Part shown: piece by piece, positions 16,690-47,178 of the stretch
Numbering within the stretch: position 1 is the stretch's first letter
Layout: every line of letters begins with the position of its first letter
Origin: Nereocystis luetkeana
Lineage: Eukaryota; Sar; Phaeophyceae; Laminariales; Laminariaceae
Assembly: GCA_031213475.1 (NCBI GenBank)
Contig: JARUPZ010000026.1
Location: 5,873,785-5,937,784 of the forward strand
DNA: 64,000 nucleotides
Direction of reading: 5' to 3'
Made by a program: the position numbers and the translations under genes
The notes under the pieces: generated by a model
Database searches by the model: none
What the model saw: the letters and a program-made list of their open reading frames with translations, nothing else
What the model was told of the DNA's origin: nothing

Positions 16690-17944
16690 GTGTAGCTTCT
16701 TCCAGACAGATCTTGCCGACACAAGTTCTACTGCCATTTTGACTGTTGAGCAGGCTTTCGTGCAGTCTGATCTTGAGGAAAATGTTTTCATGCGTTTGCC
16801 TCAGGGATGCGGTAGACTGTCGGGGAAGATAGTAAGACTGAACAAGAGCTTGTACGGTTTGAAGCAGGCATCGAGGCAGTGGCATGCTCACCTCACTAGG
16901 TGCTTACTGACTTTAGGGTTTGAGCAGTGTCTGGCTGATGCATGAGTATTTCGTTTGATGGATGAGGGGAGAGTAGTGATGACTATAGTGGTGCATGTGG
17001 ATGATATTTTTGCGGTAGGGGAGAAGGCAAGGTGTGACCAGTTTGGCAAGGAATTGGACAAGATGGTTCCAGTTAAGAACCTGGGAGAGTTGCGTTGGTA
17101 TTCGGGGTGTTTCTACGAGAGGGATTGGGAAAAGGGGGTGCTGAAGATTTCCCAGCAGACATTCGCTGAACAATTGGCGGATGAATACGGGATAGAGTTT
17201 GGTAAGAGTGTTCCGCTCCCTGTTGGCACAAAACTTGCGGACTTTGACCAGGATGAAGCGCCAGGGAGCTGGCCGTTTCGCGAGTTGGTTGGCTCACTGA
17301 TGTGGCTTTCAACTCAGACTCGGCCAGACATCTCCAACGCAGTAAGAGCAGTGGCTAGGTACTGCGCTGCTCCCAAGTTAGTGCACTGGAGGGCAGCACT
17401 TGGTATTTTAGGGTATGTGAGGAGGACTAGTTCTTTCGGAGTCACTTTTCAGAGAGGTACGGACGGGGGGCTGAGCTTGCAGGTGTTTGCTGACGCAGAC
17501 TATGCAAGCAAGGCGGCTGACAGAAGGTCAGTTTCAGGAGGATTGATGATGTGTGGGGGTGCATGCGTGTCTTGGTTTTCTAGGACTCAGAAATGCGTCA
17601 CACTTTCCACGACGGAGGCAGAGTACGTGGCACTTGCAGACGTCATTAAGGAAGTGTTGTTCTTGAGGCAGGTTTGGCGCTTCATGTTGCCTGATGTAGG
17701 CATGCCGTGCATACCGGTGTTCGAGGATAATCAGGGTGCGGTGCAGCTTGCACAGAACCCTATCACCAACTCAAACTCCAAGCACATCGACGTGCGACAC
17801 CACTTCCTCAGGGAACTGGTTGGGAGGAAAGAGATATCGATCATCCACGTACCGTCCCATTTTCAGCATGCGGATTTTCTAACCAAGGCCATCTCGCGAG
17901 AATCGTTCGAGCTCCACCGTAGCCTTGCGATGAATATGTGGTGA
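16690..17944 (+). pseudogene. Old Copia element, RT-RNase H relic
   Basis: The translation follows Copia pol from the EQAFVQSDLEENVFMRLP segment through SLYGLKQASRQWHAHL, the active-site box VVHVDDIFAVG, the TRPDISNAVRAVARY box, and the RNase H blocks FADADYASKAADRRSVSGG, TTEAEYVAL, EDNQGA and HIDVRHHFLREL, ending at a TGA at 17942-17944. A TGA at 16943-16945 replaces a Cys codon found in the younger family, and the frame is disrupted just before EQAF. It shares the HVDD active-site variant with the two younger elements but is clearly diverged from them. A polypurine tract (18190-18200) and LTR start follow. Confidence 0.8.
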
Positions 17945-19145: not shown

Positions 19146-19565
19146 TGGGAAGCGAGGGGAGCGGAGGGAGTGGAGGGAGTGGGGGGGGCGGGGGGAGCGG
19201 GGGGAACGCAGGGAGCGGAGGTAGCGGGGGGATCGGGAGCAGCGAGGGGAGCGGGAGGAGCGGGGGAAGCGATGAGAGCGGGGAGAGGGGGTAGTGCGCC
19301 ACCTTCGTCAGCAGGCAGGGGGTGGGAGGGAGGAGCGGGGGCGAGGGGGGGGGCGAGAGAAGCGAGGGGACAGGGGGGGGGCGGGGTGGAGGGAGGGAGG
19401 GAGGCGGGGGAAGCGGAGGGAGGGGGGAGGGGTACCAGGAGCGAACCTACCAGAGAGGAGAGAGATAGTGAGGGTAGAGGAGAACCGGAAACGGGAGGGC
19501 CGCGGAATGGGGGGGGGAGAGGGGGGAGAGAAGGGAGAGAGACGGGCCAAAGAAGTGGAGGGAGA
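19146..19565 (+). repeat. G-rich purine tract at the 5' end of the RT ORF
   Basis: About 420 bases are nearly all G and A on the plus strand, with an imperfect GGGGAGCGG-type short-period repeat. The tract is in frame with the downstream RT and would encode Gly/Arg/Glu-rich sequence. It has many G-runs that could form quadruplexes. Whether it is translated is unknown. Confidence 0.5.
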
Positions 19566-22193
19566 GGAGCCGCAATGGAAGACAGGGGGTCCGGGATGCC
19601 AAACGACGAGGGTCCAACCGGAGGATCTCCCAGGGTGTCGGGGAGGAGACCCGGGAACGGGACGCGCCCCAGGGCCTTCCTTGGCGACACCACAGGGGAA
19701 GTGGCGAGCGGGGTCTGCGGTGTAACGCTACAACTAGGGCACCGGGCGGTACGCTTTCCATGTGGACAAGGGCGCCACGTGCTTCACGCCCGTTGTGTGG
19801 TGGAGGCCCTTGCGAGAGGCGCAGCCCCGGCACCTCTCCGCTGCCCAGCAACCAACTGCGGGGCACAACATCCAAGACGGGAAGCACTGCAGGCAGCGGT
19901 CCAAGCGGACCCGGGGCTTCGTAATCGGGCAGCGAGGATGGGAGGGGGGACCATAGATGACGAGGACCTCCGCAGCCGGGGGCTTTGGTACGGGTGGGAC
20001 CAGAACAGCTTGGGTATAGGGCCACCACTTGATGCCGTTTCCTTGGATGACCTGGGCCAACGTTTCGCAACCGGGAAAACTGTGCAACCGCAGTTGGCTG
20101 GCGCACACGCGCGCATTAGCATTCACGTGCTCGGCATCCTCAACCACGCTATGGGTGAGCACAGGCCGAACCGAGAGTCGGCGACGCCGAAATCGCTCCT
20201 ACGGGCGATCAAGCTATGGTACCTCATGCCAGCCCTGCTCCACTCACCGGACGGCCGAATCAAGAGGCGACAGAGGTTTGCGTTGGTGGAGAGCGGGGAT
20301 ATAGTACTCCTGCTCCCATGGCTGATAGCATTCACCAGGGGAGGGGACCTGAGGCGACGGGATGCCGCCCAAGAAGATTCGGAGGAGACGAAGCTGGAGC
20401 GGGCGTCGTCGGCGTGTCGCCACGCAGGAGGGGTCAAAGTGGCAGCTCGGAACCTGCTAGCAGAGCCACGATCAGCTGGAAACGAAACGACGTGGAGCAC
20501 ACTTGTGGCCAAGTTCCCCTCCGAAGATCGCGCCGCAGTGTCCGCGGCGGCGGCGGCTGCGGTGTTGGCGACCGCCACCGAGGTGGAAGACGGAAACGCC
20601 CCTCCGTGGCGCCCTGATGATGAGTACGCCTTCGAGGTGCTCTTCGACGTCATCAGCTCCCGCAGTGCCCTTTCAGGCCCCGGAAACGATGGTCAACGCT
20701 TTGCGCACCTGCAATCCATCATCCACACCGACATCGGGCGGGAAGAGTTCGGAAAGGGCATGACAGCCTTCTGGCGGAGAATCGTCGACGAGCCGGACGC
20801 GTTCCCGCCAGAATTCTGGCAGCTTTTCTTGCAGTCGAGCCTCACTGCCTTGGGGGGAAAGTGCCGGCCGGTCTGCGTGGGCATGACATGGAGGCGGCTC
20901 ATCACCGCGGGGGCTATGCGACAGTGGCGGCCGCGGTTGGAGGAGGTCAACCGAGAGGTGAGGCAGTTTGGGGTCGCAGTACCCGGAGGAGTGGAGCATG
21001 TGGGACTGAGGGCTAGGACGTTACACGAGACGGGCAACTGGGTCGTCCTAACGGATTGCTCCAACGCCTTCAACACGGTTAAACAGACGGCGGTGCTTGA
21101 AGAGGCGGCCAACTGCGTTCCAGCGCTCACGCCGTTTGTGGCGAAGTGCTACGGCACAAGACCCGCCGACGTGTATTTCCGGATGGACTCAGGGGACACC
21201 AGGACGATCGCCTGCTCCACCGGTGTCCAGCAAGGGGACCCCATGGGGCCAGAAATGTTCTGTCTGGCGTTGAGACCAGGGCTGAAGCGTTTCCGACAGG
21301 AGTTCGAAGGAGAAGGAGTGGAAGCCTCCGCCTACATGGACAATGTATCTCTCGGCCTTATGGGGGTCACGGCCAACACGATTAGAGCTTTTGCCTTCCT
21401 CCGGCGAGAGCTAGACGACATCGGCATTGTGGTCAACCCCGCCAAGACCGTAGCACTACCACCCAAAGGACACGTCTCGACGGCGGAAGAGATATTGCTC
21501 CTGGAGAGCGTTGACGTCCGCATCGCAGACGAAGGAGGGGTGACGGTGGTTGGTGCCCCGATCGGCTCGGATGAATACGTGCTGGGGCGAGCAATGGAGG
21601 TGGTGAGGGACGGAGGCGCGGACCGTCTTGCACGCTGCCTCGCTAACATGCCAGACAAGCAAGCGGCGGCCCTCATCACCGTCGAATCCCTCGGGCAGCG
21701 GACGGGCTACCTCGAAAGGGCTCTGGACCCGGGGCTGTCACTCGAAGCATGCCGAAGGGCCGACAACGGGGCTCAGTGCGCCTACGAAAATATCCTAGAG
21801 CTACCGGGAGCGGCGGACGCACAGTCGTTTTTCCAGGAGGGGTGCCCGGCCAGCCAACTGACTCTAAAACCCTACCAACAAGCCCAAGCACGCCTTTCGA
21901 CGGGAGCAGGAGGGTTAGGGCTGCCGTCGACGGAAGCGAGGCGAATGTCTGCCTCCATTGGGAGTAGGGTGGGCATCCTGCCGGAGGTTCTAGCAGACCT
22001 CACGGGCCCGCTAGGAGACAGGGTAAAGAGGGGTCTCCCTCATTCGAGCATCATTGCTGAGCTCGGGGGCAGCCTGCGAGAGATCAGGGACACGTGGGGC
22101 GTGACAAAAGAAGCGATGGAGGGCATCGTCCCCGAATCCTGGCTGGAATGGAGCATGGGCGCAGAGGGGGACCTCGTCCCAGGGCCCGGTTAG
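19272..22193 (+). CDS. Reverse transcriptase of a non-LTR-type element, RING-like N-terminus, variant active site
   Basis: The frame is open from a GTG at 19170 to a TAG at 22191-22193 (about 1000 codons); I start at the first ATG, and another ATG at 19575 lies after the G-rich tract. Numbering from 19170, residues 177-240 hold a degenerate RING-like cluster (FPCGQGRHVLHARC, then LRCPATNC). RT motifs follow: PGNDGQRF (about 510), motif A VLTDCSNAFN (about 627), motif B GVQQGDPMGP (about 684) and motif C YMDN (722-725). The family normally has Y-x-D-D; here the second Asp is Asn (AAT), which in known RTs would abolish polymerisation. No endonuclease is visible at either end. The C-terminal STGAGGLGLPS segment is typical of this RT group. 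GC content is much higher than the flanks. It may be a recent element with a fatal change, or a retained non-polymerising protein. Confidence 0.75.
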   Translation: MRAGRGGSAPPSSAGRGWEGGAGARGGAREARGQGGGGVEGGREAGEAEGGGRGTRSEPTREERDSEGRGEPETGGPRNGGGRGGREGRETGQRSGGRGAAMEDRGSGMPNDEGPTGGSPRVSGRRPGNGTRPRAFLGDTTGEVASGVCGVTLQLGHRAVRFPCGQGRHVLHARCVVEALARGAAPAPLRCPATNCGAQHPRREALQAAVQADPGLRNRAARMGGGTIDDEDLRSRGLWYGWDQNSLGIGPPLDAVSLDDLGQRFATGKTVQPQLAGAHARISIHVLGILNHAMGEHRPNRESATPKSLLRAIKLWYLMPALLHSPDGRIKRRQRFALVESGDIVLLLPWLIAFTRGGDLRRRDAAQEDSEETKLERASSACRHAGGVKVAARNLLAEPRSAGNETTWSTLVAKFPSEDRAAVSAAAAAAVLATATEVEDGNAPPWRPDDEYAFEVLFDVISSRSALSGPGNDGQRFAHLQSIIHTDIGREEFGKGMTAFWRRIVDEPDAFPPEFWQLFLQSSLTALGGKCRPVCVGMTWRRLITAGAMRQWRPRLEEVNREVRQFGVAVPGGVEHVGLRARTLHETGNWVVLTDCSNAFNTVKQTAVLEEAANCVPALTPFVAKCYGTRPADVYFRMDSGDTRTIACSTGVQQGDPMGPEMFCLALRPGLKRFRQEFEGEGVEASAYMDNVSLGLMGVTANTIRAFAFLRRELDDIGIVVNPAKTVALPPKGHVSTAEEILLLESVDVRIADEGGVTVVGAPIGSDEYVLGRAMEVVRDGGADRLARCLANMPDKQAAALITVESLGQRTGYLERALDPGLSLEACRRADNGAQCAYENILELPGAADAQSFFQEGCPASQLTLKPYQQAQARLSTGAGGLGLPSTEARRMSASIGSRVGILPEVLADLTGPLGDRVKRGLPHSSIIAELGGSLREIRDTWGVTKEAMEGIVPESWLEWSMGAEGDLVPGPG

Positions 22194-24971: not shown

Positions 24972-25229
24972 TATTGACTGTGCTCAATAGACACGACGTA
25001 GATGTTTCATTTAGTATCAGGGAGTTCCATATATTGATGTGGGATTATAAGAGCGGGAGATTAATTGTGCCTGCAATGTGATGGATAATCGTGTGGATGC
25101 GCCGCCACCTGAGTCACTCGACAGCACTGATACGTAATAATATATATAAGAGAAGTTCCGTGTTATTGTCTGGAGTCAACCACGCGTTCCCGTGCCAGCT
25201 GCGTCTATACCTTTAGAGATCAATCAACA
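24972..25229 (+). repeat. 5' LTR, Copia copy 1
   Basis: It starts TATTGACTGTGCTC and ends GATCAATCAACA. The terminal TATTGA and TCAACA form a near inverted repeat, so the first dinucleotide is TA, not the usual TG. The borders are fixed by the 5-bp duplication and by the 3' LTR starting right after the polypurine tract. Confidence 0.85.
25139..25150 (+). promoter_or_regulatory. TATA-like box in the 5' LTR
   Basis: AATATATATAAG lies about 80 bases before the LTR end, in the position expected for a Pol II promoter driving the element. It is conserved in all four LTR copies. Function is inferred. Confidence 0.45.
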
Positions 25230-25301
25230 CACTAGTGAACCGGTGATCTTCTATTGGCAAGCGTAGCCGAGGCCAACCTAGAGAGGTGGGAACCTTCCGA
25301 C

Positions 25302-28300
25302 ATGTCTGGTTCAGATGGCATGTCTAGTCAGAAAACAAGCGTGGCCATGGAAGAGATGCTGAGGATGAAAGAGAAAATCGAGATCCTGGAGAAGATGATA
25401 GAAGAGCAGAAGTTGGGCGCCGAGAGGAACGCGCCGCAAGAAGGAATGGAAGGGGGGGCCGGTGGGGGGGCGAGAGGAGAAGCAGCTACGAGGGAACCAG
25501 CAGCATCGACGGTGACGACACCTGGGCTGGGAGCCCGTCCAGGCATGTCACTAAACACTTCTTTATACCGCCCTAGTTTGTCCCAGTCGAGACCCCCCAA
25601 ATTCGATAACATAGAAGCCCACTTTAGTATGTGGCGTAGCAAGTTCGAAGCGTACCTGTCATCCCTAGGGTGCCTTCATGTGTTAAGCACGTCAACCCCT
25701 GTTATGGTTGGTGACGTGAGGGTGTCGGAAGAGGAGCTAGCATCGAGGCATTCTCCTCAGGAGATTAGGGATGCCCGATTAGTTTATGGACTGATGATGG
25801 AAGCAATGACTGGATACGCAATGGCTGAGTTCAGAATGCAGAAGGCAATGTCGCCAAGTGGTGCATGGAAGGAATTAGAAGATTACTACATGCCAAGGAC
25901 AATAGCGGCCACCCATAGACTGAAGAGAGAGTTTACAACCATCAGAATGATCGAGGACGAAAACCCCGTGCTGTTCCTAGGGAGGGTGGATAAGGCAGCA
26001 GATGAGCTGGCCATGCTTGGCTGTGGGATGAGTGTGGAAGAGGTTAACCGACATATCGTGACGAACCTCTCGCCTCTATATATGATACAAAGCAAGTCCG
26101 TTCTTTCCCGCCCGTCCATCCCCCGTTCCGAGATCGATGAGATCATCCGCGATGCGTACGCAAACGATAAGGCAGATAAAGAAATGGTTTCCAAGGCGTT
26201 GGGTGTGCAGGGAGTGGGAAACCAGCATGCTTTGTACGCCGGAGGTGCGCAGCCTACCAGTGGTGGAGGTGCGGGTCCAGGAAGGGAAAGGAGGGACAGG
26301 AGAGGCGGGAGGTACAAGGGTGGGCAGCAGCCGCAGCAGCAGCAGCAGTATCAGCAGCAGCAGCAGCAGCAGTATCAACAGCAGCAGCAGTATCAGCAGC
26401 AACCGCAGCAGCAGCGGCAGCAGCAGCAGCAGCAGCGACCCCAGCAGCAGCAGCAGTACCATCAACAGCAGCAGCAGCAGCAACAACCCCAGCAACAGCA
26501 GTACCAGCAGCAGCAGCATCGTCCCCGTCGGCATGATGGCAACCGGGGAGGAGCTTCGCCGGGGGGAATTACCGGCCCCAAATGGCGTTGGGATGCCGTG
26601 GCCTGCAGGTACCGATGGGATAACTCCGGTCCCGACCCCTTCGGTGCGGGTGGGGCGGTCCCGCCCATGGGTTGGGTACCTACCGAGCCACCACCAGGGG
26701 CAATGCCCCCTATGCCCCCGCCGCCCGTAATGACTCCGGCGGGCTGGGGTTTCCCGCCGAACAACACGCAACCGAGGAGCAAGGGGGTCTGTTTTCGGTG
26801 TGGCAAACACGGCAACTACGCCGCAACTTGCCCGGCAGCCGCCCCGCAGATGAACGTCGCAGTCCCGAGTACTGCTGCCCCTCCCCCTCAACAGATATAC
26901 TACGGAGGTGGCTGGCAGCAGGAGACGCCCTACGGCAGTGGTGGGTATACCTCAGCCGGAGCTTTCCCGTCACAACAACCCTCCTCGAGCACTTTCCCTT
27001 CCCCTGGCCCAGCGAACAACGGCAACCCTATGCCTACGTTCGACCCGCACCTCCTCACCGCGCAGTTTGCGCACCAAGGCAAGAGTATTTTTAGCGACGA
27101 TCTGTTTTGGGCTAGTGGGAGGGAAGAGTGGGTGGCGGATTCGGGAGCAACCTTTCACGTAACTGGAAACCCCTTTGGTATGGTAGGCTGTTACCCCCCT
27201 CCCCCCGGTAAGAGTAGTTTGGTCGTCGGTGACATGAGGTCACTGAAGGTCGAGTACTTCGGACAGATTCCGATGGTAATGCACAGCCCGCAGTGTGATG
27301 TCCAGGTTAGGTTTTTGGACGTAGCCTACGTGCCCGGTGTTCGGTTCAACCTGTTTTCACTTCACGCAGTAATGCTGAAATGCCCGGTGACTTTAGATTC
27401 CCAGGGAGCTCACTTGTTGGATGGGCAATTGTCCTTTATGCGTAAGGACGCAGGTTCGTACGTAGACGCCACGCGGACTGTAGAGACCCCGATTGCTGCC
27501 GCTGTTTTGGCTCCCGGAAAAATGCGGAGGATTGATATTAACGACCTTCACGTTTCCCTTGCCCACTCCCATGCTGACACTCTCCGTGAGACGGCACGCC
27601 AGATGGGCATTAAGGTTTTTGGGGAGTTGGTTTCGTGTGCTGGATGTTCTGAGGCGAAGGGGAGGAGGATGGCGGTGCCATGGACGACCGAGTGCCGCTC
27701 CACCAGGCCTCTGGAACGTCTGTTCGTGGATCTGTCGGGACAGCAGTCGACGTCTGCTGGCGGTGCGCAGTACATGATGATGATCGTCGACGACTACTCG
27801 CGACTGGGATGGCCGTATTTCTTGAAGCGGAAGTCCGACGTCCCGAAGGTCTTCGCTGGTTTTCTGGCCGACATCAACGCCAAGGGTGTTCCGTCCATCG
27901 TGGAGTGCCTTCGCTCGGACAACGGCACCGAGTTCACCAAGGCGGAGTTCGTGGAGCTGCTCAACCACCACGGTATCCGCCGCGAGCACACGCCCGTCGA
28001 TTCTCCGAAGCATGACGGCGTGGTCGAGCGGCGAATTGCGATGACGCTGGAGCTTGCAATGGCGTCCCGCCTAGAGGCCCCCCGCCTGTTCAGCGATGCA
28101 AGGATGCCGGCGACGCAGCCCCTTTGGGCTGAGTCCTGCGTGTACGCGAGCGACGTCATCAACATGACGGCAAGGGTGAGGGACAAGCCGGAAATGCACT
28201 CGCCGTACCGCAAATTTTACGGGAGAGCACCGTTTGCGCGGCTGCTCCCATTTTTGAAGCCAGGTTTCCACCACGTCAGGAGGAGCTTGAAGACCGAGCC

Positions 28301-29243
28301 GAAGGCGGAGGCTTGTTTCTACCTCAACGGCGGCAACCACCACGCAGCTGACTGCAGCAAGATTCTGCTGGCATCTGGCCGGAGGTCGTTCTCCCGCGAC
28401 GTCACTTGGGAGCACCCGAGGAAGCCGTTCGTGGGGTTACTGCCTTCGGAGGAGGAGAGCTCCCCACCGCCGCCGTTGCCGTCACCACCGCCCCCGGGTA
28501 CGCCGGAGCCTCTGAGAGGCCCTGACGTATGGCCCGAATTACCGTCCCCATCCCCACTGCTGCCGCCGCTACCGCCGTCATCACCGCCGCTACCGCCGCC
28601 GCCGCCGCCGTCGCCGTCGCCACCGCCCCCGCCGTCACCGTCGCCGTCGCTGCCGCCGTCATCGTCACCGCCGCCGCCGCCGCCACTGCCACCGTCACCG
28701 CCACCGCCGTCGCCACCGCCGCCGCCGCCGCCGTCGCCGTCGCCGCCGAGATCATCGCCGTCGCCGCCGCAGCAGTCATCGCAGCCACAGCTTTCGCAGC
28801 GTGCTGCTCGGGAACTGGGTTCTTATATCCCGGACCCGGAGGATGGCGACGTACTGAGGGGGCGGACCAGGGGGAAGACTGCACGGCACCAGGAGGGTGG
28901 CGGCGGTGTACAGGGTGGCCGGACAGTGGGGGAAGCTGGACGACACCCGGAGGAAGGGGACGTTCTGAGGGGGCGGACAAGAGGGGAGACCGCGCGGAAC
29001 CGCGAGGCTATGGGGCATGGGCTGCTATCGCTGATGGCAGCACGGGAAGGTATAGGCCATGTGCTTTTCCACCAAGCCCCACCGCGCGAGAATCCTCCCC
29101 TTCCCACGCGCCCGGCAAGCGAGCTTTCGACGCCGAACTCGTATGCTGAAGCGTGTGTGGACGAGTATTCGACGATCTGGAGGCAGGCGATGGACAAGGA
29201 ATATCATGGACTGGCGGACGCGGGGACGTTTGGAGCGACGTAG
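25302..29243 (+). CDS. Copia Gag-protease-integrase polyprotein, copy 1
   Basis: The frame is open from an in-frame TTG at 25254; the first ATG is at 25302. Numbering from 25254: Gag up to about residue 600, with a long Gln-rich stretch (about 355-420) and a CCHC-type knuckle CFRCGKHGNYAATC near 513-526, in which the zinc-binding His is Asn (codon 26814-26816; copy 2 keeps His). Protease follows with ADSGATFH (about 628). Integrase has an H/H/C/C finger (HVSLAHSHADT...CAGC) and catalytic D, D, E in FVDLSG (about 825), RSDNGTEF (about 888) and VVERR (about 924). A Pro-rich linker (about 1065-1180) and a repeated DVLRGRTRG segment lead to the UAG at 29241-29243. Acts in assembling virus-like particles, processing and integration. 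Confidence 0.9.
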   Translation: MSGSDGMSSQKTSVAMEEMLRMKEKIEILEKMIEEQKLGAERNAPQEGMEGGAGGGARGEAATREPAASTVTTPGLGARPGMSLNTSLYRPSLSQSRPPKFDNIEAHFSMWRSKFEAYLSSLGCLHVLSTSTPVMVGDVRVSEEELASRHSPQEIRDARLVYGLMMEAMTGYAMAEFRMQKAMSPSGAWKELEDYYMPRTIAATHRLKREFTTIRMIEDENPVLFLGRVDKAADELAMLGCGMSVEEVNRHIVTNLSPLYMIQSKSVLSRPSIPRSEIDEIIRDAYANDKADKEMVSKALGVQGVGNQHALYAGGAQPTSGGGAGPGRERRDRRGGRYKGGQQPQQQQQYQQQQQQQYQQQQQYQQQPQQQRQQQQQQRPQQQQQYHQQQQQQQQPQQQQYQQQQHRPRRHDGNRGGASPGGITGPKWRWDAVACRYRWDNSGPDPFGAGGAVPPMGWVPTEPPPGAMPPMPPPPVMTPAGWGFPPNNTQPRSKGVCFRCGKHGNYAATCPAAAPQMNVAVPSTAAPPPQQIYYGGGWQQETPYGSGGYTSAGAFPSQQPSSSTFPSPGPANNGNPMPTFDPHLLTAQFAHQGKSIFSDDLFWASGREEWVADSGATFHVTGNPFGMVGCYPPPPGKSSLVVGDMRSLKVEYFGQIPMVMHSPQCDVQVRFLDVAYVPGVRFNLFSLHAVMLKCPVTLDSQGAHLLDGQLSFMRKDAGSYVDATRTVETPIAAAVLAPGKMRRIDINDLHVSLAHSHADTLRETARQMGIKVFGELVSCAGCSEAKGRRMAVPWTTECRSTRPLERLFVDLSGQQSTSAGGAQYMMMIVDDYSRLGWPYFLKRKSDVPKVFAGFLADINAKGVPSIVECLRSDNGTEFTKAEFVELLNHHGIRREHTPVDSPKHDGVVERRIAMTLELAMASRLEAPRLFSDARMPATQPLWAESCVYASDVINMTARVRDKPEMHSPYRKFYGRAPFARLLPFLKPGFHHVRRSLKTEPKAEACFYLNGGNHHAADCSKILLASGRRSFSRDVTWEHPRKPFVGLLPSEEESSPPPPLPSPPPPGTPEPLRGPDVWPELPSPSPLLPPLPPSSPPLPPPPPPSPSPPPPPSPSPSLPPSSSPPPPPPLPPSPPPPSPPPPPPPSPSPPRSSPSPPQQSSQPQLSQRAARELGSYIPDPEDGDVLRGRTRGKTARHQEGGGGVQGGRTVGEAGRHPEEGDVLRGRTRGETARNREAMGHGLLSLMAAREGIGHVLFHQAPPRENPPLPTRPASELSTPNSYAEACVDEYSTIWRQAMDKEYHGLADAGTFGAT

Positions 29244-29252
29244 CAACCAGAG
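29238..29252 (+). promoter_or_regulatory. Candidate stop-codon read-through signal
   Basis: The sequence ACG TAG CAA CCA GAG places an amber codon before CAA CCA, an exact fit to the UAG-CAR-YYA consensus known from tobamovirus-type read-through. It is the only stop between integrase and RT in 1,800 codons, and the same 9 bases occur at the same place in copy 2 (42812-42820, minus strand). I infer that a small share of ribosomes read through to make RT-RNase H. It could also be an inherited nonsense change. Confidence 0.6.
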
Positions 29253-30659
29253 GGGCTCAACGTCATCTCGGCGAAGTGGGTGTTCGCCTGGAAGTCCAAC
29301 GAGCATGGTGATGTGGTGCGGGCGAAAGCAAGGCTGGTGGCACGAGGTTTCAAGCAGCGTGAGGGTATTGATTTCTTTGAGACTTTTGCTCCGACCCCTG
29401 CAGCGTCTTGTTTCCGTTTGCTGGGTGCCGTTGCGTGCGAGTTGGGTCTGGATTTGTGTCATTTTGATGCTGAGCAAGCATTCGTGCAGTCGAGTTTGGA
29501 GGAGGATGTTTTCATGCGACTGCCCCCTGGCTGCGGCGAAATGTCCGGTAAGGTAGTCAGGTTGAACCGCAGTCTCTATGGCTTGAAGCAAGCGTCGAGG
29601 TCGTGGCACAACCACCTTCTCACTCACATGAAGAGTCTAGGCTTTGAGCAGAGCCCCGCTGACGCGTGTGTCATGAGGTTGGTCGAGTCGGGCTCTGTCT
29701 CCATAGTAACAGTGGTTCATGTGGATGATATTTTTGCTGTAGGGCGCAAGGCTAGGTGCGATCAGTTCTGTGAAGACCTGAACAGCCTTGTTCCGATCAA
29801 CAATCTGGGCGAGTTGCGGTGGTATGCTGGTTGTTGTTTTTCGAGGGATTGGGATGCTGGTACTTTGACGATTTCGCAGCAGGCGTTCGCTGAAAGGACC
29901 GCGGCGAGGTTTGGTGTTAGTTCCGGGAGGAATAATCCGCTTTCGACTGGTGTGAAGCTCGAAGAGTTCGACGAGAATGAACCCGTGGGTGATTGGCCTT
30001 TCCGCGAGTTGGTGGGGTGCTTGATGTGGCTTGCGAACCAAACACGACCGGATATTGCGAACGCGGTGAGGGCGGTAGCGAGGTACACGAATAGGCCGAG
30101 GGAAGTACACTGGGAGACAGCGGTCGGTATTTTAGAGTATGTTTTTTCTACGAGTGATTTCGGCATTACGTTTCAGAAGGGTAGCGGGCTTGAACTGGTA
30201 GCGTTTGCGGATGCGGACTACGCCAACAAAGCCACTGACAGGAGGTCAGTTTCAGGTGGGGCTATCATGTGTGCTGGGGCGTGTGTGTGCTGGTTTTCTA
30301 GGACACAGAAATGCGTTACGCTCTCGACCACTGAGGCCGAATATGTAGCACTAGCAGACACTATCAAGGAGGCGATGTTCTTGCGCTACGTTTGGAGTTT
30401 CATTTTTCCGGGGTTCGGGGAGCGATGCATTACGGTTTTCGAGGATAACGAGGGGGCAAGGCACCTGGCACAAAACCCAGTGTGCACGTCGAATTCTAAG
30501 CACATCGATGTTCGACACCACTTTTTGCGAGAGCTTATTTCCAAGGGGGAGTTTGTTATTACCCATGTAGAGTCGGAGGAGCAGCGCGCAGACTTCTTGA
30601 CAAAGCCGCTCAACAACATGGTTTTTCGTTACCACCGGGATTTTCTGATGAACCTTTGA
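29244..30659 (+). CDS. Copia reverse transcriptase-RNase H, copy 1 (via read-through)
   Basis: In the same frame as Gag-PR-IN, just after the UAG. The RT begins with the NVISAKWVFAWKS segment and KARLVARGFKQREGIDFFET, both typical of Copia RT, and has FDAEQAFVQSS (motif A), SLYGLKQASRSWHNHL and the active site VVHVDDIFAVG, with both Asp present but His in place of the usual Tyr. RNase H carries AFADADYANKATDRRSVSGG, TTEAEYVAL, FEDNEGA and HIDVRHHFLREL. It ends at TGA 30657-30659. The frame has no lesion. There is no good separate start codon near its 5' end, which favours fusion over independent initiation. Confidence 0.9.
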   Translation, partial: QPEGLNVISAKWVFAWKSNEHGDVVRAKARLVARGFKQREGIDFFETFAPTPAASCFRLLGAVACELGLDLCHFDAEQAFVQSSLEEDVFMRLPPGCGEMSGKVVRLNRSLYGLKQASRSWHNHLLTHMKSLGFEQSPADACVMRLVESGSVSIVTVVHVDDIFAVGRKARCDQFCEDLNSLVPINNLGELRWYAGCCFSRDWDAGTLTISQQAFAERTAARFGVSSGRNNPLSTGVKLEEFDENEPVGDWPFRELVGCLMWLANQTRPDIANAVRAVARYTNRPREVHWETAVGILEYVFSTSDFGITFQKGSGLELVAFADADYANKATDRRSVSGGAIMCAGACVCWFSRTQKCVTLSTTEAEYVALADTIKEAMFLRYVWSFIFPGFGERCITVFEDNEGARHLAQNPVCTSNSKHIDVRHHFLRELISKGEFVITHVESEEQRADFLTKPLNNMVFRYHRDFLMNL

Positions 30660-31366
30660 CGCCTTGTTTCCGAGATGTTTTATTTTAAGTTTTTTTTGTG
30701 TTTTCCGAGTGGTCACAACGTCAAATAAATTTCTAGTGGGGAAACCTATGTGCTATCTCGCATTACCGTCGCGATCTGTGTATCTATGGCGGGAGTAGGG
30801 GATAAGGGGAGACTCTTGTCCGGAGGAACGGGGTTCCTCGCGATCTCTGGCATTAAGTTTCTTGACTTGATTTTATTTTGATTGGCATGACCACTCCTGT
30901 GGTATTTTTCTGATGATACTTGTGATTTAGGTTTTTGACAAGGCTGAAGTGAGACTAGGAAGCGCCTGGGGGCGTGTGCGGTCCACATGAAAATGTTTTC
31001 CGACGTGAGAGAGGTCGGTAGAACTGAAGAGACACTGTGATATATTTGAATCAATTCCGCGGAAAATGCCGTTTTACCTGGCTGAATCCGAGAAGAATGC
31101 CGTTTTACCTGGCATTGGATTTCGGTATTTTTATATGTTTGCAACGGAGAGAGGCTATGGATTTGAGCATTTGAATACTGGTTTGAGGATTTGAGTGTTG
31201 ATTCGAGAATTTTATTTTTGAGTCACATGTTGGGTATTTGAGTTTCTGAAGTTCATATGAGTTGGTCATAAAGAAGAGATATATCGACCCAGCGAAGTCG
31301 TACATTGTCATGTTGCCGACCTGGGGGGATATTGAAGTATGGTCCGTGTATAGTGAGCAGGGGGGG
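30660..31366 (+). other. 3' non-coding region and polypurine tract, Copia copy 1
   Basis: About 700 bases with no frame. A direct repeat AATGCCGTTTTACCTGGC occurs twice (about 31066 and 31095). The polypurine tract AGCAGGGGGG lies at 31357-31366. A similar GGGGGGATATTGA at about 31323-31335 looks like a decayed second tract. Confidence 0.6.
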
Positions 31367-31632
31367 TATTGACTGTGCTCAATAGACACGACGTAGATGT
31401 TTCATTTAGTATCTGATAATCAGGGAGTTCCATATATTGATGTGGGATTATAAGAGCGGGAGATTAATTGTGCCTGCAATGTGATGGATAATCCTGTGGA
31501 TGCGCCGCCACCTGAGTCACTCGACAGCACTGATACGTAATAATATATATAAGAGAAGTTCCGTGTTATTGTCTGGAGTCAACCACGCGTTCCCGTGCCA
31601 GCTGCGTCTATACCTTTAGAGATCAATCAACA
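31367..31632 (+). repeat. 3' LTR, Copia copy 1
   Basis: 266 bases, TATTGACTG to ATCAACA, the same length as both LTRs of copy 2. It differs from the 5' LTR of its own element by one substitution and 8 extra bases. Confidence 0.85.
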
Positions 31633-40397: not shown

Positions 40398-40663
40398 TGT
40401 TGATTGATCTCTAAAGGTATAGACGCAGCTGGCACGGGAACGCGTGGTTGACTCCAGACAATAACACGGAACTTCTCTTATATATATTATTACGTATCAG
40501 TGCTGTCGAGTGACTCAGGTGGCGGCGCATCCACACGATTATCCATCACATTGCAGGCACAATTAATCTCCCGCTCTTATAATCCCACATCAATATATGG
40601 AACTCCCTGATTATCAGATACTAAATGAAACATCTACGTCGTGTCTATTGAGCACAGTCAATA
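40398..40663 (-). repeat. 3' LTR, Copia copy 2
   Basis: Minus-strand reading starts TATTGACTG and ends ATCAACA. Identical by eye to 46913-47178. Confidence 0.85.
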
Positions 40664-41401
40664 TCCCCCCTGCTCACTATACACGGACCATACTTCAATA
40701 TCCCCCCAGGTCGGCAACATGACAATGTACGACTTCGCTGGGTCGATATATCTCTTCTTTATGACCAACTCATATGAACTTCAGAAACTCAAATACCCAA
40801 CATGTGACTCAAAAATAAAATTCTCGAATCAACACTCAAATCCTCAAACCAGTATTCAAATGCTCAAATCCATAGCCTCTCTCCGTTGCAAACATATAAA
40901 AATACCGAAATCCAATGCCAGGTAAAACGGCATTCTTCTCGGATTCAGCCAGGTAAAACGGCATTTATTTTCCGCGGAATTGATTCAAATATATCAGTGT
41001 CTCTTCAGTCCTACCGACCTCTCTCAATTTCCGAATACTATCCAGACCTTCCCTCGTCGGAAAACATTTTCATGTGGACCGCACACGCCCCCAGGCGCTT
41101 CCTAGTCTCACTTCAGCCTTGTCAAAAACCTAAATCACAAGTATCATCAGAAAAATACCACAGGAGTGGTCATGCCAATCAAAATAAAATCAAGTCAAGA
41201 AACTTAATGCCAGAGATCGCGAGGAACCCCGTTCCTCCGGACAAGAGTCTCCCCTTATCCCCTACTCCCGCCATAGATACACAGATCGCGACGGTAATGC
41301 GAGATAGCACATAGGTTTCCCCACTAGAAATTTATTTGACGTTGTGACCACTCGGAAAACACAAAAAAAAACTTAAAATAAAACATCTCGGAAACAAGGC
41401 G

Positions 41402-42817
41402 TCAAAGGTTCATCAGAAAATCCCGGTGGTAACGAAAAACCATGTTGTTGAGCGGCTTTGTTAAGAAGTCTGCGCGCTGCTCCTCCGACTCTACATGGGT
41501 AATAACAAACTCCCCCTTGGAAATAAGCTCTCGCAAAAAGTGGTGTCGAACATCGATGTGCTTAGAATTCGACGTGCACACTGGGTTTTGTGCCAGGTGC
41601 CTTGCCCCCTCGTTATCCTCGAAAACCGTAATGCATCGCTCCCCGAACCCCGGAAAAATGAAACTCCAAACGTAGCGCAAGAACATCGCCTCCTTGATAG
41701 TGTCTGCTAGTGCTACATATTCGGCCTCAGTGGTCGAGAGCGTAACGCATTTCTGTGTCCTAGAAAACCAGCACACACACGCCCCAGCACACATGATAGC
41801 CCCACCTGAAACTGACCTCCTGTCAGTGGCTTTGTTGGCGTAGTCCGCATCCGCAAACGCTACCAGTTCAAGCCCGCTACCCTTCTGAAACGTAATGCCG
41901 AAATCACTCGTAGAAAAAACATACTCTAAAATACCGACCGCTGTCTCCCAGTGTACTTCCCTCGGCCTATTCGTGTACCTCGCTACCGCCCTCACCGCGT
42001 TCGCAATATCCGGTCGTGTTTGGTTCGCAAGCCACATCAAGCACCCCACCAACTCGCGGAAAGGCCAATCACCCACGGGTTCATTCTCGTCGAACTCTTC
42101 GAGCTTCACACCAGTCGAAAGCGGATTATTCCTCCCGGAACTAACACCAAACCTCGCCGCGGTCCTTTCAGCGAACGCCTGCTGCGAAATCGTCAAAGTA
42201 CCAGCATCCCAATCCCTCGAAAAACAACAACCAGCATACCACCGCAACTCGCCCAGATTGTTGATCGGAACAAGGCTGTTCAGGTCTTCACAGAACTGAT
42301 CGCACCTAGCCTTGCGCCCTACAGCAAAAATATCATCCACATGAACCACTGTTACTATGGAGACAGAGCCCGACTCGACCAACCTCATGACACACGCGTC
42401 AGCGGGGCTCTGCTCAAAGCCTAGACTCTTCATGTGAGTGAGAAGGTGGTTGTGCCACGACCTCGACGCTTGCTTCAAGCCATAGAGACTGCGGTTCAAC
42501 CTGACTACCTTACCGGACATTTCGCCGCAGCCAGGGGGCAGTCGCATGAAAACATCCTCATCCAAACTCGACTGCACGAATGCTTGCTCAGCATCAAAAT
42601 GACACAAATCCAGACCCAACTCGCACGCAACGGCACCCAGCAAACGGAAACAAGACGCTGCAGGGGTCGGAGCAAAAGTCTCAAAGAAATCAATACCCTC
42701 ACGCTGCTTGAAACCTCGTGCCACCAGCCTTGCTTTCGCCCGCACCACATCACCATGCTCGTTGGACTTCCAGGCGAACACCCACTTCGCCGAGATGACG
42801 TTGAGCCCCTCTGGTTG
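41402..42817 (-). CDS. Copia reverse transcriptase-RNase H, copy 2 (via read-through)
   Basis: Open throughout and nearly identical to copy 1, with one visible change in the SSLDEDVFMRL segment (Glu to Asp). The active site is again VHVDD and all RNase H blocks are present. It lies in frame behind a UAG at 42818-42820 followed by CAA CCA. Since the upstream frame has an extra nonsense codon, Gag-RT fusion from this copy would need two read-through events. Confidence 0.88.
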   Translation of the reverse strand, partial: QPEGLNVISAKWVFAWKSNEHGDVVRAKARLVARGFKQREGIDFFETFAPTPAASCFRLLGAVACELGLDLCHFDAEQAFVQSSLDEDVFMRLPPGCGEMSGKVVRLNRSLYGLKQASRSWHNHLLTHMKSLGFEQSPADACVMRLVESGSVSIVTVVHVDDIFAVGRKARCDQFCEDLNSLVPINNLGELRWYAGCCFSRDWDAGTLTISQQAFAERTAARFGVSSGRNNPLSTGVKLEEFDENEPVGDWPFRELVGCLMWLANQTRPDIANAVRAVARYTNRPREVHWETAVGILEYVFSTSDFGITFQKGSGLELVAFADADYANKATDRRSVSGGAIMCAGACVCWFSRTQKCVTLSTTEAEYVALADTIKEAMFLRYVWSFIFPGFGERCITVFEDNEGARHLAQNPVCTSNSKHIDVRHHFLRELISKGEFVITHVESEEQRADFLTKPLNNMVFRYHRDFLMNL

Positions 42818-42820
42818 CTA
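42812..42820 (-). promoter_or_regulatory. Candidate read-through signal, copy 2
   Basis: Minus-strand TAG CAA CCA, identical in sequence and position to copy 1. Its conservation shows the stop was present in the parent of both copies. Confidence 0.6.
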
Positions 42821-44860
42821 CGTCGCTCCAAACGTCCCCGCGTCCGCCAGTCCATGATATTCCTTGTCCATCGCCTGCCTCCAGATCGTCGAATACTCGT
42901 CCACACACGCTTCAGCATACGAGTTCGGCGTCGAAAGCTCGCTTGCCGGGCGCGTGGGAAGGGGAGGATTCTCGCGCGGTGGGGCTTGGTGGAAAAGCAC
43001 ATGGCCTATACCTTCCCGTGCTGCCATCAGCGATAGCAGCCCATGCCCCATAGCCTCGCGGTTCCGCGCGGTCTCCCCTCTTGTCCGCCCCCTCAGAACG
43101 TCCCCTTCCTCCGGGTGTCGTCCAGCTTCCCCCACTGTCCGGCCACCCTGTACACCGCCGCCACCCTCCTGGTGCCGTGCAGTCTCCCCCCTTGTCCGCC
43201 CCCTCAGTACGTCCCCTTCCTCCGGGTGTCGTCCAGCTTCCCCCACTGTCCGACCACCCTGCACACCGCCGCCACCTTCCTGGTGTCGTGCAGTCTCCCC
43301 CCTGGTCCGCCCCCTCAGTACGTCGCCATCCTCCGGGTCCGGGATATAAGAACCCAGTTCCCGAGCAGCACGCTGCGAAAGCTGTGGCTGCGATGACTGC
43401 TGCGGCGGCGACGGCGATGATCTCGGCGGCGACGGCGACGGCGGCGGCGGCGGCGGTGGCGACGGCGGTGGCGGTGACGGTGGCAGTGGCGGCGGCGGTG
43501 ACGATGACGGCGGCAGCGACGGCGACGGTGACGGCGGGGGCGGTGGCGACGGCGACGGCGGCGGCGGCGGTGGTAGCGGCGGTGATGACGGCGGTAGCGG
43601 CGGCAGCAGTGGGGATGGGGACGGTAATTCGGGCCATACGTCAGGGCCTCTCAGAGGCTCCGGCGTACCCGGGGGCGGTGGTGACGGCAACGGCGGCGGC
43701 GGGGAGCTCTCCTCCTCCGAAGGCAGTAACCCCACGAACGGCTTCCTCGGGTGCTCCCAAGTGACGTCGCGGGAGAACGACCTCCGGCCAGATGCCAGCA
43801 GAATCTTGCTGCAGTCAGCTGCGTGGTGGTTGCCGCCGTTGAGGTAGAAACAAGCCTCCGCCTTCGGCTCGGTCTTCAAGCTCCTCCTGACGTGGTGGAA
43901 ACCTGGCTTCAAAAATGGGAGCAGCCGCGCAAACGGTGCTCTCCCGTAAAATTTGCGGTACGGCGAGTGCATTTCCGGCTTGTCCCTCACCCTTGCCGTC
44001 ATGTTGATGACGTCGCTCGCGTACACGCAGGACTCAGCCCAAAGGGGCTGCGTCGCCGGCATCCTTGCATCGCCGAACAGGCGGGGGGCCTCTAGGCGGG
44101 ACGCCATTGCAAGCTCCAGCGTCATCGCAATTCGCCGCTCGACCACGCCGTCATGCTTCGGAGAATCGACGGGCGTGTGCTCGCGGCGGATACCGTGGTG
44201 GTTGAGCAGCTCCACGAACTCCGCCTTGGTGAACTCGGTGCCGTTGTCCGAGCGAAGGCACTCCACGATGGACGGAACACCCTTGGCGTTGATGTCGGCC
44301 AGAAAACCAGCGAAGACCTTCGGGACGTCGGACTTCCGCTTCAAGAAATACGGCCATCCCAGTCGCGAGTAGTCGTCGACGATCATCATCATGTACTGTG
44401 CACCGCCAGCAGACGTCGACTGCTGTCCCGACAGATCCACGAACAGACGTTCCAGAGGCCTGGTGGAGCGGCACTCGGTCGTCCATGGCACCGCCATCCT
44501 CCTCCCCTTCGCCTCAGAACATCCAGCACACGAAACCAACTCCCCAAAAACCTTAATGCCCATCTGGCGTGCCGTCTCACGGAGAGTGTCGGCATGGGAG
44601 TGGGCAAGGGAAACGTGAAGGTCGTTAATATCAATCCTCCGCATTTTTCCGGGAGCCAAAACAGCGGCTGCAATCGGGGTCTCTACAGTCCGCGTGGCGT
44701 CTACGTACGAACCTGCGTCCTTACGCATAAAGGACAATTGCCCATCCAACAAGTGAGCTCCCTGGGAATCTAACGTCACCGGGCATTTCAGCATTACTGC
44801 GTGAAGTGAAAACAGGTTGAACCGAACACCGGGCACGTAGGCTACGTCCAAAAGCCTAAC
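42818..44860 (-). pseudogene. Copia integrase and linker, copy 2, downstream of a nonsense codon
   Basis: Continues the Gag-PR frame after the private TAG. It holds the integrase finger (HVSLAHSHADT, CAGC), the D, D, E residues in FVDLSG, RSDNGTEF and VVERR, the Pro-rich linker, and three copies of a 37-residue unit beginning DVLRGRTRGETARHQEG (copy 1 has two). It has no good start codon of its own, so it is probably not made unless the stop is read through. Confidence 0.75.
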
Positions 44861-46840
44861 CTAGACATCACACTGCGGGCTGTGCATTACCATCGGAATC
44901 TGTCCGAAGTACTCGACCTTCAGTGACCTCATGTCACCGACGACCAAACTACTCTTACCGGGGGGAGGGGGGTAACAGCCTACCATACCAAAGGGGTTTC
45001 CAGTTACGTGAAAGGTTGCTCCCGAATCCGCCACCCACTCTTCCCTCCCACTAGCCCAAAACAAATCGTCGCTAAAAATACTCTTGCCTTGGTGCGCAAA
45101 CTGCGCGGTGAGGAGGTGCGGGTCGAACGTAGGCATAGGGTTGCCGTTGTTCGCTGGGCCAGGGGAAGGGAAAGTGCTCGAGGAGGGTTGTTGTGACGGG
45201 AAAGCTCCGGCTGAGGTATACCCACCACTGCCGTAGGGCGTCTCCTGCTGCCAGCCACCTCCGTAGTATATCTGTTGAGGGGGAGGGGCAGCAGTACTCG
45301 GGACTGCGACGTTCATCTGCGGGGCGGCTGCCGGGCAAGTTGCGGCGTAGTGGCCGTGTTTGCCACACCGAAAACAGACCCCCTTGCTCCTCGGTTGCGT
45401 GTTGTTCGGCGGGAAACCCCAGCCCGCCGGAGTCATTACGGGCGGCGGGGGCATAGGGGGCATTGCCCCTGGTGGTGGCTCGGTAGGTACCCAACCCATG
45501 GGCGGGACCGCCCCACCCGCACCGAAGGGGTCGGGACCGGAGTTATCCCAACGGTACCTGCAGGCCACGGCATCCCAACGCCATTTGGGGCCGGTAATTC
45601 CCCCCGGCGAAGCTCCTCCCCGGTTGCCATCATGCCGACGGGGACGATGCTGCTGCTGCTGGTACTGCTGTTGCTGGGGTTGTTGCTGCTGCTGCTGCTG
45701 TTGATGGTACTGCTGCTGCTGCTGGGGTCGCTGCTGCTGCTGCTGCTGCCGCTGCTGCTGCGGTTGCTGCTGATACTGCTGCTGCTGTTGATACTGCTGC
45801 TGCTGCTGCGGCTGCTGCCCACCCTTGTACCTCCCGCCTCTCCTGTCCCTCCTTTCCCTTCCTGGACCCGCACCTCCACCACTGGTAGGCTGCGCACCTC
45901 CGGCGTACAAAGCATGCTGGTTTCCCACTCCCTGCACACCCAACGCCTTGGAAACCATTTCTTTATCTGCCTTATCGTTTGCGTACGCATCGCGGATGAT
46001 CTCATCGATCTCGGAACGGGGGATGGACGGGCGGGAAAGAACGGACTTGCTTTGTATCATATATAGAGGCGAGAGGTTCGTCACGATATGTCGGTTAACC
46101 TCTTCCACACTCATCCCACAGCCAAGCATGGCCAGCTCATCTGCTGCCTTATCCACCCTCCCTAGGAACAGCACGGGGTTTTCGTCCTCGATCATTCTGA
46201 TGGTTGTAAACTCTCTCTTCAGTCTATGGGTGGCCGCTTTTGTCCTTGGCATGTAGTAATCTTCTAATTCCTTCCGTGCACCACTTGGCGACATTGCCTT
46301 CTGCATTCTGAACTCAGCCATTGCGTATCCAGTCATTGCTTCCATCATCAGTCCATAAACTAATCGGGCATCCCTAATCTCCTGAGGAGAATGCCTCGAT
46401 GCTAGCTCCTCTTCCGACACCCTCACGTCACCAACCATAACAGGGGTTGACGTGCTTAACACATGAAGGCACCCTAGGGATGACAGGTACGCTTCGAACT
46501 TACTACGCCACATACTAAAGTGGACTTCTATGTTATCGAATTTGGGGGGTCTCGACTGGGACAAACTAGGGTGGTATAAAGAAGTGTTTGGTGACATGCC
46601 TGGACGGGCTCCCAGCCCAGGTGTCGTCACCGTCGATGCTGCTGGTTCCCTCGCAGCTGCTTCTCCTCTCGCCCCCCCACCGCCCCCCCCCTCCATTCCT
46701 TCTTGCGGCGCGTTCCTCTCGGCGCCCAGCTTCTGCTCTTCTATCATCTTCTCCAGGACCTCGATTTTCTCTTTCATCCTCAGCATCTCTTCCATGGCCA
46801 CGCTTGCTTCCTGACTAGACATGCCATCTGAACCAGACAT
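44861..46840 (-). CDS. Copia Gag-protease, copy 2, ended by a private nonsense codon
   Basis: Starts at the first ATG (an in-frame TTG is at 46888). Gag has an intact CCHC knuckle CFRCGKHGHYAATC (about 45340-45385) and a Gln-rich stretch shorter than in copy 1. The protease box ADSGATFH is present. The frame ends at TAG 44861-44863, where copy 1 has CAG (Gln) after HSPQCDV; the following bases (GTT AGG) do not fit a read-through consensus. So this copy could supply Gag and protease only. Confidence 0.85.
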   Translation of the reverse strand: MSGSDGMSSQEASVAMEEMLRMKEKIEVLEKMIEEQKLGAERNAPQEGMEGGGGGGARGEAAAREPAASTVTTPGLGARPGMSPNTSLYHPSLSQSRPPKFDNIEVHFSMWRSKFEAYLSSLGCLHVLSTSTPVMVGDVRVSEEELASRHSPQEIRDARLVYGLMMEAMTGYAMAEFRMQKAMSPSGARKELEDYYMPRTKAATHRLKREFTTIRMIEDENPVLFLGRVDKAADELAMLGCGMSVEEVNRHIVTNLSPLYMIQSKSVLSRPSIPRSEIDEIIRDAYANDKADKEMVSKALGVQGVGNQHALYAGGAQPTSGGGAGPGRERRDRRGGRYKGGQQPQQQQQYQQQQQYQQQPQQQRQQQQQQRPQQQQQYHQQQQQQQQPQQQQYQQQQHRPRRHDGNRGGASPGGITGPKWRWDAVACRYRWDNSGPDPFGAGGAVPPMGWVPTEPPPGAMPPMPPPPVMTPAGWGFPPNNTQPRSKGVCFRCGKHGHYAATCPAAAPQMNVAVPSTAAPPPQQIYYGGGWQQETPYGSGGYTSAGAFPSQQPSSSTFPSPGPANNGNPMPTFDPHLLTAQFAHQGKSIFSDDLFWASGREEWVADSGATFHVTGNPFGMVGCYPPPPGKSSLVVGDMRSLKVEYFGQIPMVMHSPQCDV

Positions 46841-46912
46841 GTCGGAAGGTTCCCACCTCTCTAGGTTGGCCTCGGCTACGCTTGCCAATAGAAGATCACC
46901 GGTTCACTAGTG

Positions 46913-47178
46913 TGTTGATTGATCTCTAAAGGTATAGACGCAGCTGGCACGGGAACGCGTGGTTGACTCCAGACAATAACACGGAACTTCTCTTATATAT
47001 ATTATTACGTATCAGTGCTGTCGAGTGACTCAGGTGGCGGCGCATCCACACGATTATCCATCACATTGCAGGCACAATTAATCTCCCGCTCTTATAATCC
47101 CACATCAATATATGGAACTCCCTGATTATCAGATACTAAATGAAACATCTACGTCGTGTCTATTGAGCACAGTCAATA
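46913..47178 (-). repeat. 5' LTR, Copia copy 2
   Basis: Identical by eye to 40398-40663. Carries the same TATA-like box. The internal edge is followed by the same 24-base leader as in copy 1. Confidence 0.85.

Follow-up and report, generated by a model that had tools for sequence, protein, structure and literature searches.

In most retroelements it is Pol as a whole that is kept scarce relative to Gag. Tca2 of Candida albicans belongs to the Ty1/copia type of such elements. The closest described systems with a leaky or in-frame stop are the following. In tobacco mosaic virus (TMV), a stop followed by CARYYA gives a readthrough extension, and the wider hexamer CARNBA can stimulate readthrough in yeast (PMC4132726). 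In murine leukaemia virus (MuLV), the UAG between gag and pol lies after gag, and a purine spacer and a pseudoknot are required (PMC2194720). Tca2 carries a UGA between gag and pol together with a candidate pseudoknot, and its stop region alone gave no directed readthrough in yeast, which is a caution for any readthrough reading (PMC2194720). In SIRE1, a Sirevirus of soybean, a stop divides pol from an envelope-like gene (PMC2829016). A paper on diatoms mentions gag and pol being separated by stops or frameshifts (PMC2806351), while a plant survey mentions ORF organisation and random stops (PMC6317226). The terms "stop codon" and "readthrough" are absent from the main text of an Ectocarpus survey that covers 35 Copia families (PMC12477816).

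The element analysed here lies in a window of 64,000 nucleotides, which is the whole stretch of Nereocystis luetkeana DNA that was studied. Like the TMV type, it has a stop directly followed by CAR-YYA or CAR-N-B-A (PMC4132726), but this stop belongs to an LTR retrotransposon, sits inside pol, and is conserved in a genome-resident clade. Tca2 shares with it an in-frame stop that interrupts the Gag-Pol frame; there, however, a UGA marks the gag/pol border, whereas here a UAG follows integrase, away from that border and inside the reverse transcriptase (RT). SIRE1 is likewise of the Copia type with stop-codon suppression, but the stop of the window element splits pol itself. As in MuLV, readthrough of a UAG would ration a polymerase polyprotein, the difference being that the UAG of the window element is inside RT. 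No description of a stop conserved at the junction of integrase and RT was found among the open-access matches listed, as far as their titles and the starts of their abstracts go, and a stop just inside the RT domain is a position that we have not seen described in the excerpts of the open-access literature searched.

Two Copia-type copies in the window

Two nearly identical copies of one element were delimited. Copy A, a Copia-type LTR element defined by its LTR ends, repeats, and flanks, spans 24972..31632 on the forward strand and is bordered by a 5-bp target-site duplication, AAGTT. Its 5' LTR lies at 24972..25229 (forward), and its 3' LTR (31367..31632, forward) is preceded by a purine run; both LTRs begin with TATTGA and end with TCAACA, opening with TA rather than the usual TG. 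ORF 1 (25239..29243, forward, 1334 codons) ends at the TAG and encodes Gag, a protease region, integrase, a linker, and, by prediction, the opening stretch of the RT domain. Pfam placed Pol_BBD and rve above their cut-offs on this frame, the latter at residues 822-923, and gave a weak match to Retrotran_gag_2 that fell under its cut-off. The protease region was recognised by eye through a DSGA motif, which we take to be its signature. Gag, the protease region, and integrase thus share one frame, and the stop comes after integrase. The readthrough-type signal TAG CAA CCA (UAG-CARYYA) occupies 29241..29249 of the forward strand, with TAG at 29241-29243, CAA at 29244-29246, and CCA at 29247-29249. 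Directly behind the TAG, and in phase with ORF 1, runs the RT-RNase H frame (29244..30659, forward, 471 codons), which ends at a TGA. This frame matches RVT_2 with an E value of 3.1e-43; RVT_2 was the only Pfam family reported for it, and the RNase H assignment was made by eye.

Copy B, the same element on the reverse strand (40398..47178), has a 5-bp target-site duplication of ATACC and LTRs at 46913-47178 and 40398-40663. Its TAG CAA CCA lies at 42812..42820 (reverse), the TAG at 42820-42818 being followed by CAA CCA, and its RT-RNase H frame covers 41402..42817 (reverse, 471 codons). A further in-frame stop at 44863-44861 (44861..44863, reverse), outside the signal, is damage, and copy B is therefore counted as damaged upstream of RT. 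Copy B, unlike copy A, has an in-frame tandem duplication of 111 nt in its pre-RT linker (43054-43275). When the two copies were compared (25239-30659 against 41402-46903), most differences fell in the Gag half, with 13 substitutions within 25332-25903, and few (2) in RT-RNase H, as if these parts had separate histories. With their LTRs and 5-bp duplications, and with integrase ahead of an RVT_2-type RT, both copies have the make-up of Ty1/copia elements.

The window also holds a truncated RT-RNase H of a second lineage, named D (16748..17938, forward), which is 65% identical to copy A; its RT start is missing, and the fragment is uninformative on the stop by itself. A distinct frame of 1015 codons at 19146-22193 encodes, according to Pfam, a reverse transcriptase of the RVT_1 type and is not a Copia element.

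Position of the stop and start of the downstream frame

The sequence-only reading of this locus had reported an in-frame TAG CAA CCA in both copies, placed between integrase and RT, with the RT-RNase H frame open and in phase behind it and lacking a good start of its own. The hexamer context was read in both copies, and the downstream frame is as described. The placement between the two domains has to be corrected. Indeed, the RVT_2 match in the piece of copy A that follows the TAG begins at profile position 10 of 244, so the stop is predicted to fall a short way into the RT domain, not between two domains, and the first nine or so RVT_2 positions should precede it. On the upstream frame, where only about nine of its positions would lie, RVT_2 was not reported by Pfam.

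Past the stop, the first methionine occurs at residue 91 in representatives of lineages A, B, and C, and at residue 100 in a relative from a separate record, L003 (lineage E). In all four it falls downstream of residues 75-80 of the RT frame, which we take to be motif A. Only in lineage D does an ATG stand close by, two codons past the stop. This ATG is what speaks for true termination at the TAG, with RT-RNase H arising from an initiation event of its own, whether internal, non-AUG, or by reinitiation past the stop. We regard such separate initiation as very unlikely: outside lineage D, a product started at the first methionine would begin beyond motif A; the RT domain starts ahead of the stop, and a sequence of the EF-GL-AGTF type is kept up to the stop in most lineages (3 to 11 residues separate the conserved TF from the stop); and separate initiation leaves the conservation of CAR-N-B-A unexplained. 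Most likely, the ribosome has to pass the stop to make the copying enzyme.

Copies in the same genome

The 465-Mb assembly that contains the window (G000) was searched with three queries; the counts that follow cover the copies scored or read, and most candidate places in the genome lie outside them. With the RT of L003 as the query, 89 copies were scored out of 2748 candidate places, and the junctions of all 89 were read. They comprise lineage A (the window type, with an RT frame of 471 codons), lineage B (a frame of 476), and one copy of lineage C. TAG stood at the site in 88 of them, followed by CAACCA in 58, CAGCCA in 28, CAACCT in one (L100), and CAGCGA in one. The phase upstream of the TAG was fully open over the stretch examined in 55/58 rows of A (mostly 99 codons only), 25/28 of B, and 5/9 of C, as well as in L003.

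The one copy with a sense codon, L091 (G000:C39:776302-777720), has a frame open over 1539 codons. Over 1503 sites it shows 41 differences from the window copy, which places it among the more diverged A copies, and no young copy without the stop was seen among the 89. In lineage B, 17/27 copies show no difference across a 1503-nt stretch that includes the TAG (the truncated L098 was excluded), and the stop-bearing form has therefore, by this measure, multiplied recently.

Lineage C, about 69% identical, was searched with its own query (90 scored of 2683 candidates), and TAG was found in all 12 copies read (L102/L103, which are one copy, L104-L112, L123, and L124). Nine of these continue with CAACGA and one with CAGCGA; the remaining two have AAACGA (L105) and TAACGA, that is, another stop right after the TAG (L112). 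It should be noted that L103 (G000:C8:1656197-1657615), the representative of C, has a histidine at the motif-A residue where the other 8/9 C copies have aspartate, and it may be inactive.

The D fragment of the window, used as the third query, gave 121 scored copies of 2246 candidates. Among D-type rows, the frame was exactly 473 codons in 17 and was never longer at an identity of at least 83%, as expected with a stop at the same place. From the scored copies of this search, D and two more lineages, F and G, were each read at the junction alone, in two, four, and two copies, respectively: L113 and L116 (D), L118, L119, L120, and L122 (F), and L117 and L121 (G). Frame length was part of the reason for choosing L113, L116, L117, and L118, and diversity guided the choice of the remaining four. 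All eight junctions have the TAG, followed by CAATCA in six, CAACCA in one, and CAAGCA in one; the two D copies read TAG CAA CCA and TAG CAA TCA. Nine matches to one element type were also observed on a single contig (G000:C22:151195-640922) at intervals of about 48-70 kb, a spacing that suggests a repeated segment.

Conservation at the stop

Among A, B, C, and L003, dS was 0.42 for the A-B pair and 2.0-5.4 otherwise, with one pair undefined. RT-RNase H is, on its omega values of 0.04-0.09 where defined, under purifying selection. Fourfold sites were identical in 9/96 codons among A, B, C, and L003, and in 3/70 among A, C, D, and L003. Silent sites between the deep lineages are thus estimated to be near saturation (dS about 2-5), yet TAG-CAR-N-B-A is kept. 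A stop-anchored alignment of representatives from six deep lineages had 11 invariant columns out of 57; seven of these are the TAG, the CAA, and the sixth base, A, and the other four are scattered. Each lineage fits CARYYA or CARNBA at the level of the copies read, barring L091, L100, L105, and L112, which are single-copy departures. Such hexamers are rare elsewhere in the four RT frames: CARYYA occurs in frame at 4 of 1876 codon pairs, three of the four being the stop site itself, and CARNBA at 11 of 1876, of which four are the stop site.

The first codon after the TAG is CAG in place of CAA in B and in one C copy. The second codon is CCA, CGA, or TCA (GCA and CCT once each) and would specify proline, arginine, serine, or, once, alanine, whereas its final A is present in every lineage, with L100 as the lone exception. 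Since the residue changes while the final A stays, it is the nucleotides and not the protein that are conserved, and the pattern at the stop is best read as selection on a nucleotide signal.

The sequence-only reading had named beforehand, as its test, conservation of the TAG and of CARYYA across the family with a low dN/dS of RT. The TAG has held up in the own-genome copies read and in L003, and the low omega was obtained between lineages that all carry it. CARYYA is found in A, B, D, E, F, and one of the two G copies read, while C has the wider CARNBA, as CAACGA.

The base preceding the stop varies among lineages. This bears on the proposal that the TAG is a 3' splice acceptor, through which a subgenomic RNA would connect an upstream exon with RT-RNase H. 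AG is indeed the normal end of an acceptor, and the RT frame continues in phase directly after the TAG; nevertheless, the pyrimidine content of the 20 nt before the TAG is 0.20-0.55 in eight representatives, a poor acceptor context, and conservation extends 3' of the TAG to the sixth base, where acceptors need little. Together with the variable base ahead of the TAG, this makes splicing highly improbable.

In a tree, the stop-bearing lineages A-E were split from the included sense-codon lineages with a support of 1.000; F, G, and two sense-codon loci, L114 and L115, represented by their junctions alone, were left out. The tree is consistent with one origin of the stop. Ordinary nonsense decay would instead place the origin of the stop in a single dead source copy, from which it spread by passive copying while an intact element provided the enzymes in trans. 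An inherited lesion could indeed be shared by two copies of one window, and other stops are present in many A copies. Against this, several lineages separated by a dS of about 2-5 keep the stop, and their RT-RNase H has the omega given above; the stop recurs in the D, F, and G junctions and in the second record, L003, and is followed by a hexamer conserved as nucleotides, and the only scored copy without it (1/89), L091, is a diverged one. We therefore give nonsense decay almost no credence.

Meaning of TAG in the host genome

TAG is a real stop in this genome. It closes the RT-RNase H frame in 23/28 B copies; an earlier TAG is found in one of the others, and in four the stretch ends before the stop. 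All glutamine codons in the two frames of copy A (91 and 14) are CAA or CAG. Over 34 matches to actin, TAG was counted once, TGA twice, and TAA three times, with no excess of TAG. A chaperonin was also tried for this test of the genetic code, and it returned 70 equal-score matches on small contigs, plastid-like in our reading, which are not informative on nuclear genes; actin was used instead. A host that decodes TAG as an amino acid would have no stop at the site at all, and the continuation of the frame in phase with a conserved protein would suit this. The TAGs that end RT-RNase H, the glutamine codons, and the actin matches all run against it, and a free sense codon should drift like the fourfold sites, of which 3/70 were kept. 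Reassignment of TAG is thus extremely improbable.

Predicted expression of the element

Our preferred reading, to which we assign a probability of about 0.86, is tobamovirus-type programmed readthrough at the conserved TAG, rationing RT-RNase H against Gag-protease-integrase. The TAG would be a maintained recoding site. Most ribosomes would halt there and yield Gag-protease-integrase, while a minority, aided by the 3' context UAG-CAR-N-B-A, would decode UAG as sense and produce one long Gag-PR-IN-RT-RNase H chain. The leak would thereby ration the reverse transcriptase relative to Gag and integrase. Both the occurrence of readthrough and its effect on the stoichiometry of RT-RNase H to Gag-PR-IN are inferred by us from the sequence pattern.

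A linear signal of the tobamovirus type seems the simplest account. Four 100-nt strands after the stop folded no better than their shuffles (z of 0.28, -1.09, -1.62, and 1.42). A fold of the alignment of four sequences gave a hairpin of 21 pairs, 92% paired, with a covariation term of +0.25 and double changes at 2 pairs; its covariation score was matched by 56 of 500 shuffles, a comparison that covers only four sequences and a model that does not include pseudoknots.

We also consider it likely that these elements form a distinct class of Copia expression, in which Gag, protease, and integrase would be made in bulk and only RT-RNase H would be rationed by a UAG-CARNBA inside RT. The termination product would be integrase with an inert RT stub, and the arrangement would have arisen once and outlasted the memory of silent sites. 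If this is true, integrase goes with Gag and only the reverse transcriptase is scarce, which would offer a natural test of which part of Pol must be scarce. The locus also provides a comparative case in which the context of a stop is kept base by base while the encoded residue varies (proline, arginine, or serine), and its many genomic copies are a large set for studying stop-codon context.

Relatives in other records

Scans of viral contigs returned no relatives of the element, and a phage scan gave zero matches. Three matches, all distant, were found in plasmids. Of two scans of other genome contigs, the first gave no relatives and the second yielded five loci, of which one, L003, is close: its RT is 73% identical to that of A, and it has TAG CAA CCA at the same point in a separate record. 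L003 is filed under a Robiginitomaculum metagenome-assembled genome (MAG; G001) and probably represents algal DNA that was grouped with the bacterium during binning. L010, from another contig of this MAG, shows 49% identity and carries a sense codon in place of the stop. When L010 was used as a query, two loci of the window's own genome, L114 and L115, were 55% and 48% identical to it. Like the window element, they encode a Copia-type RT, but a sense codon replaces the stop in both, and each has one uninterrupted frame, of 1629 and 1586 codons, respectively.

Several contigs of the Robiginitomaculum MAG bear Copia elements (L003, L009, L010, and L011), and these are probably eukaryotic contamination. 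Plant-like Copia polyproteins were also observed in actinobacterial plasmid and genome records (L001, NZ_CP115454.1, and L004-L006), where they are probably contamination as well.
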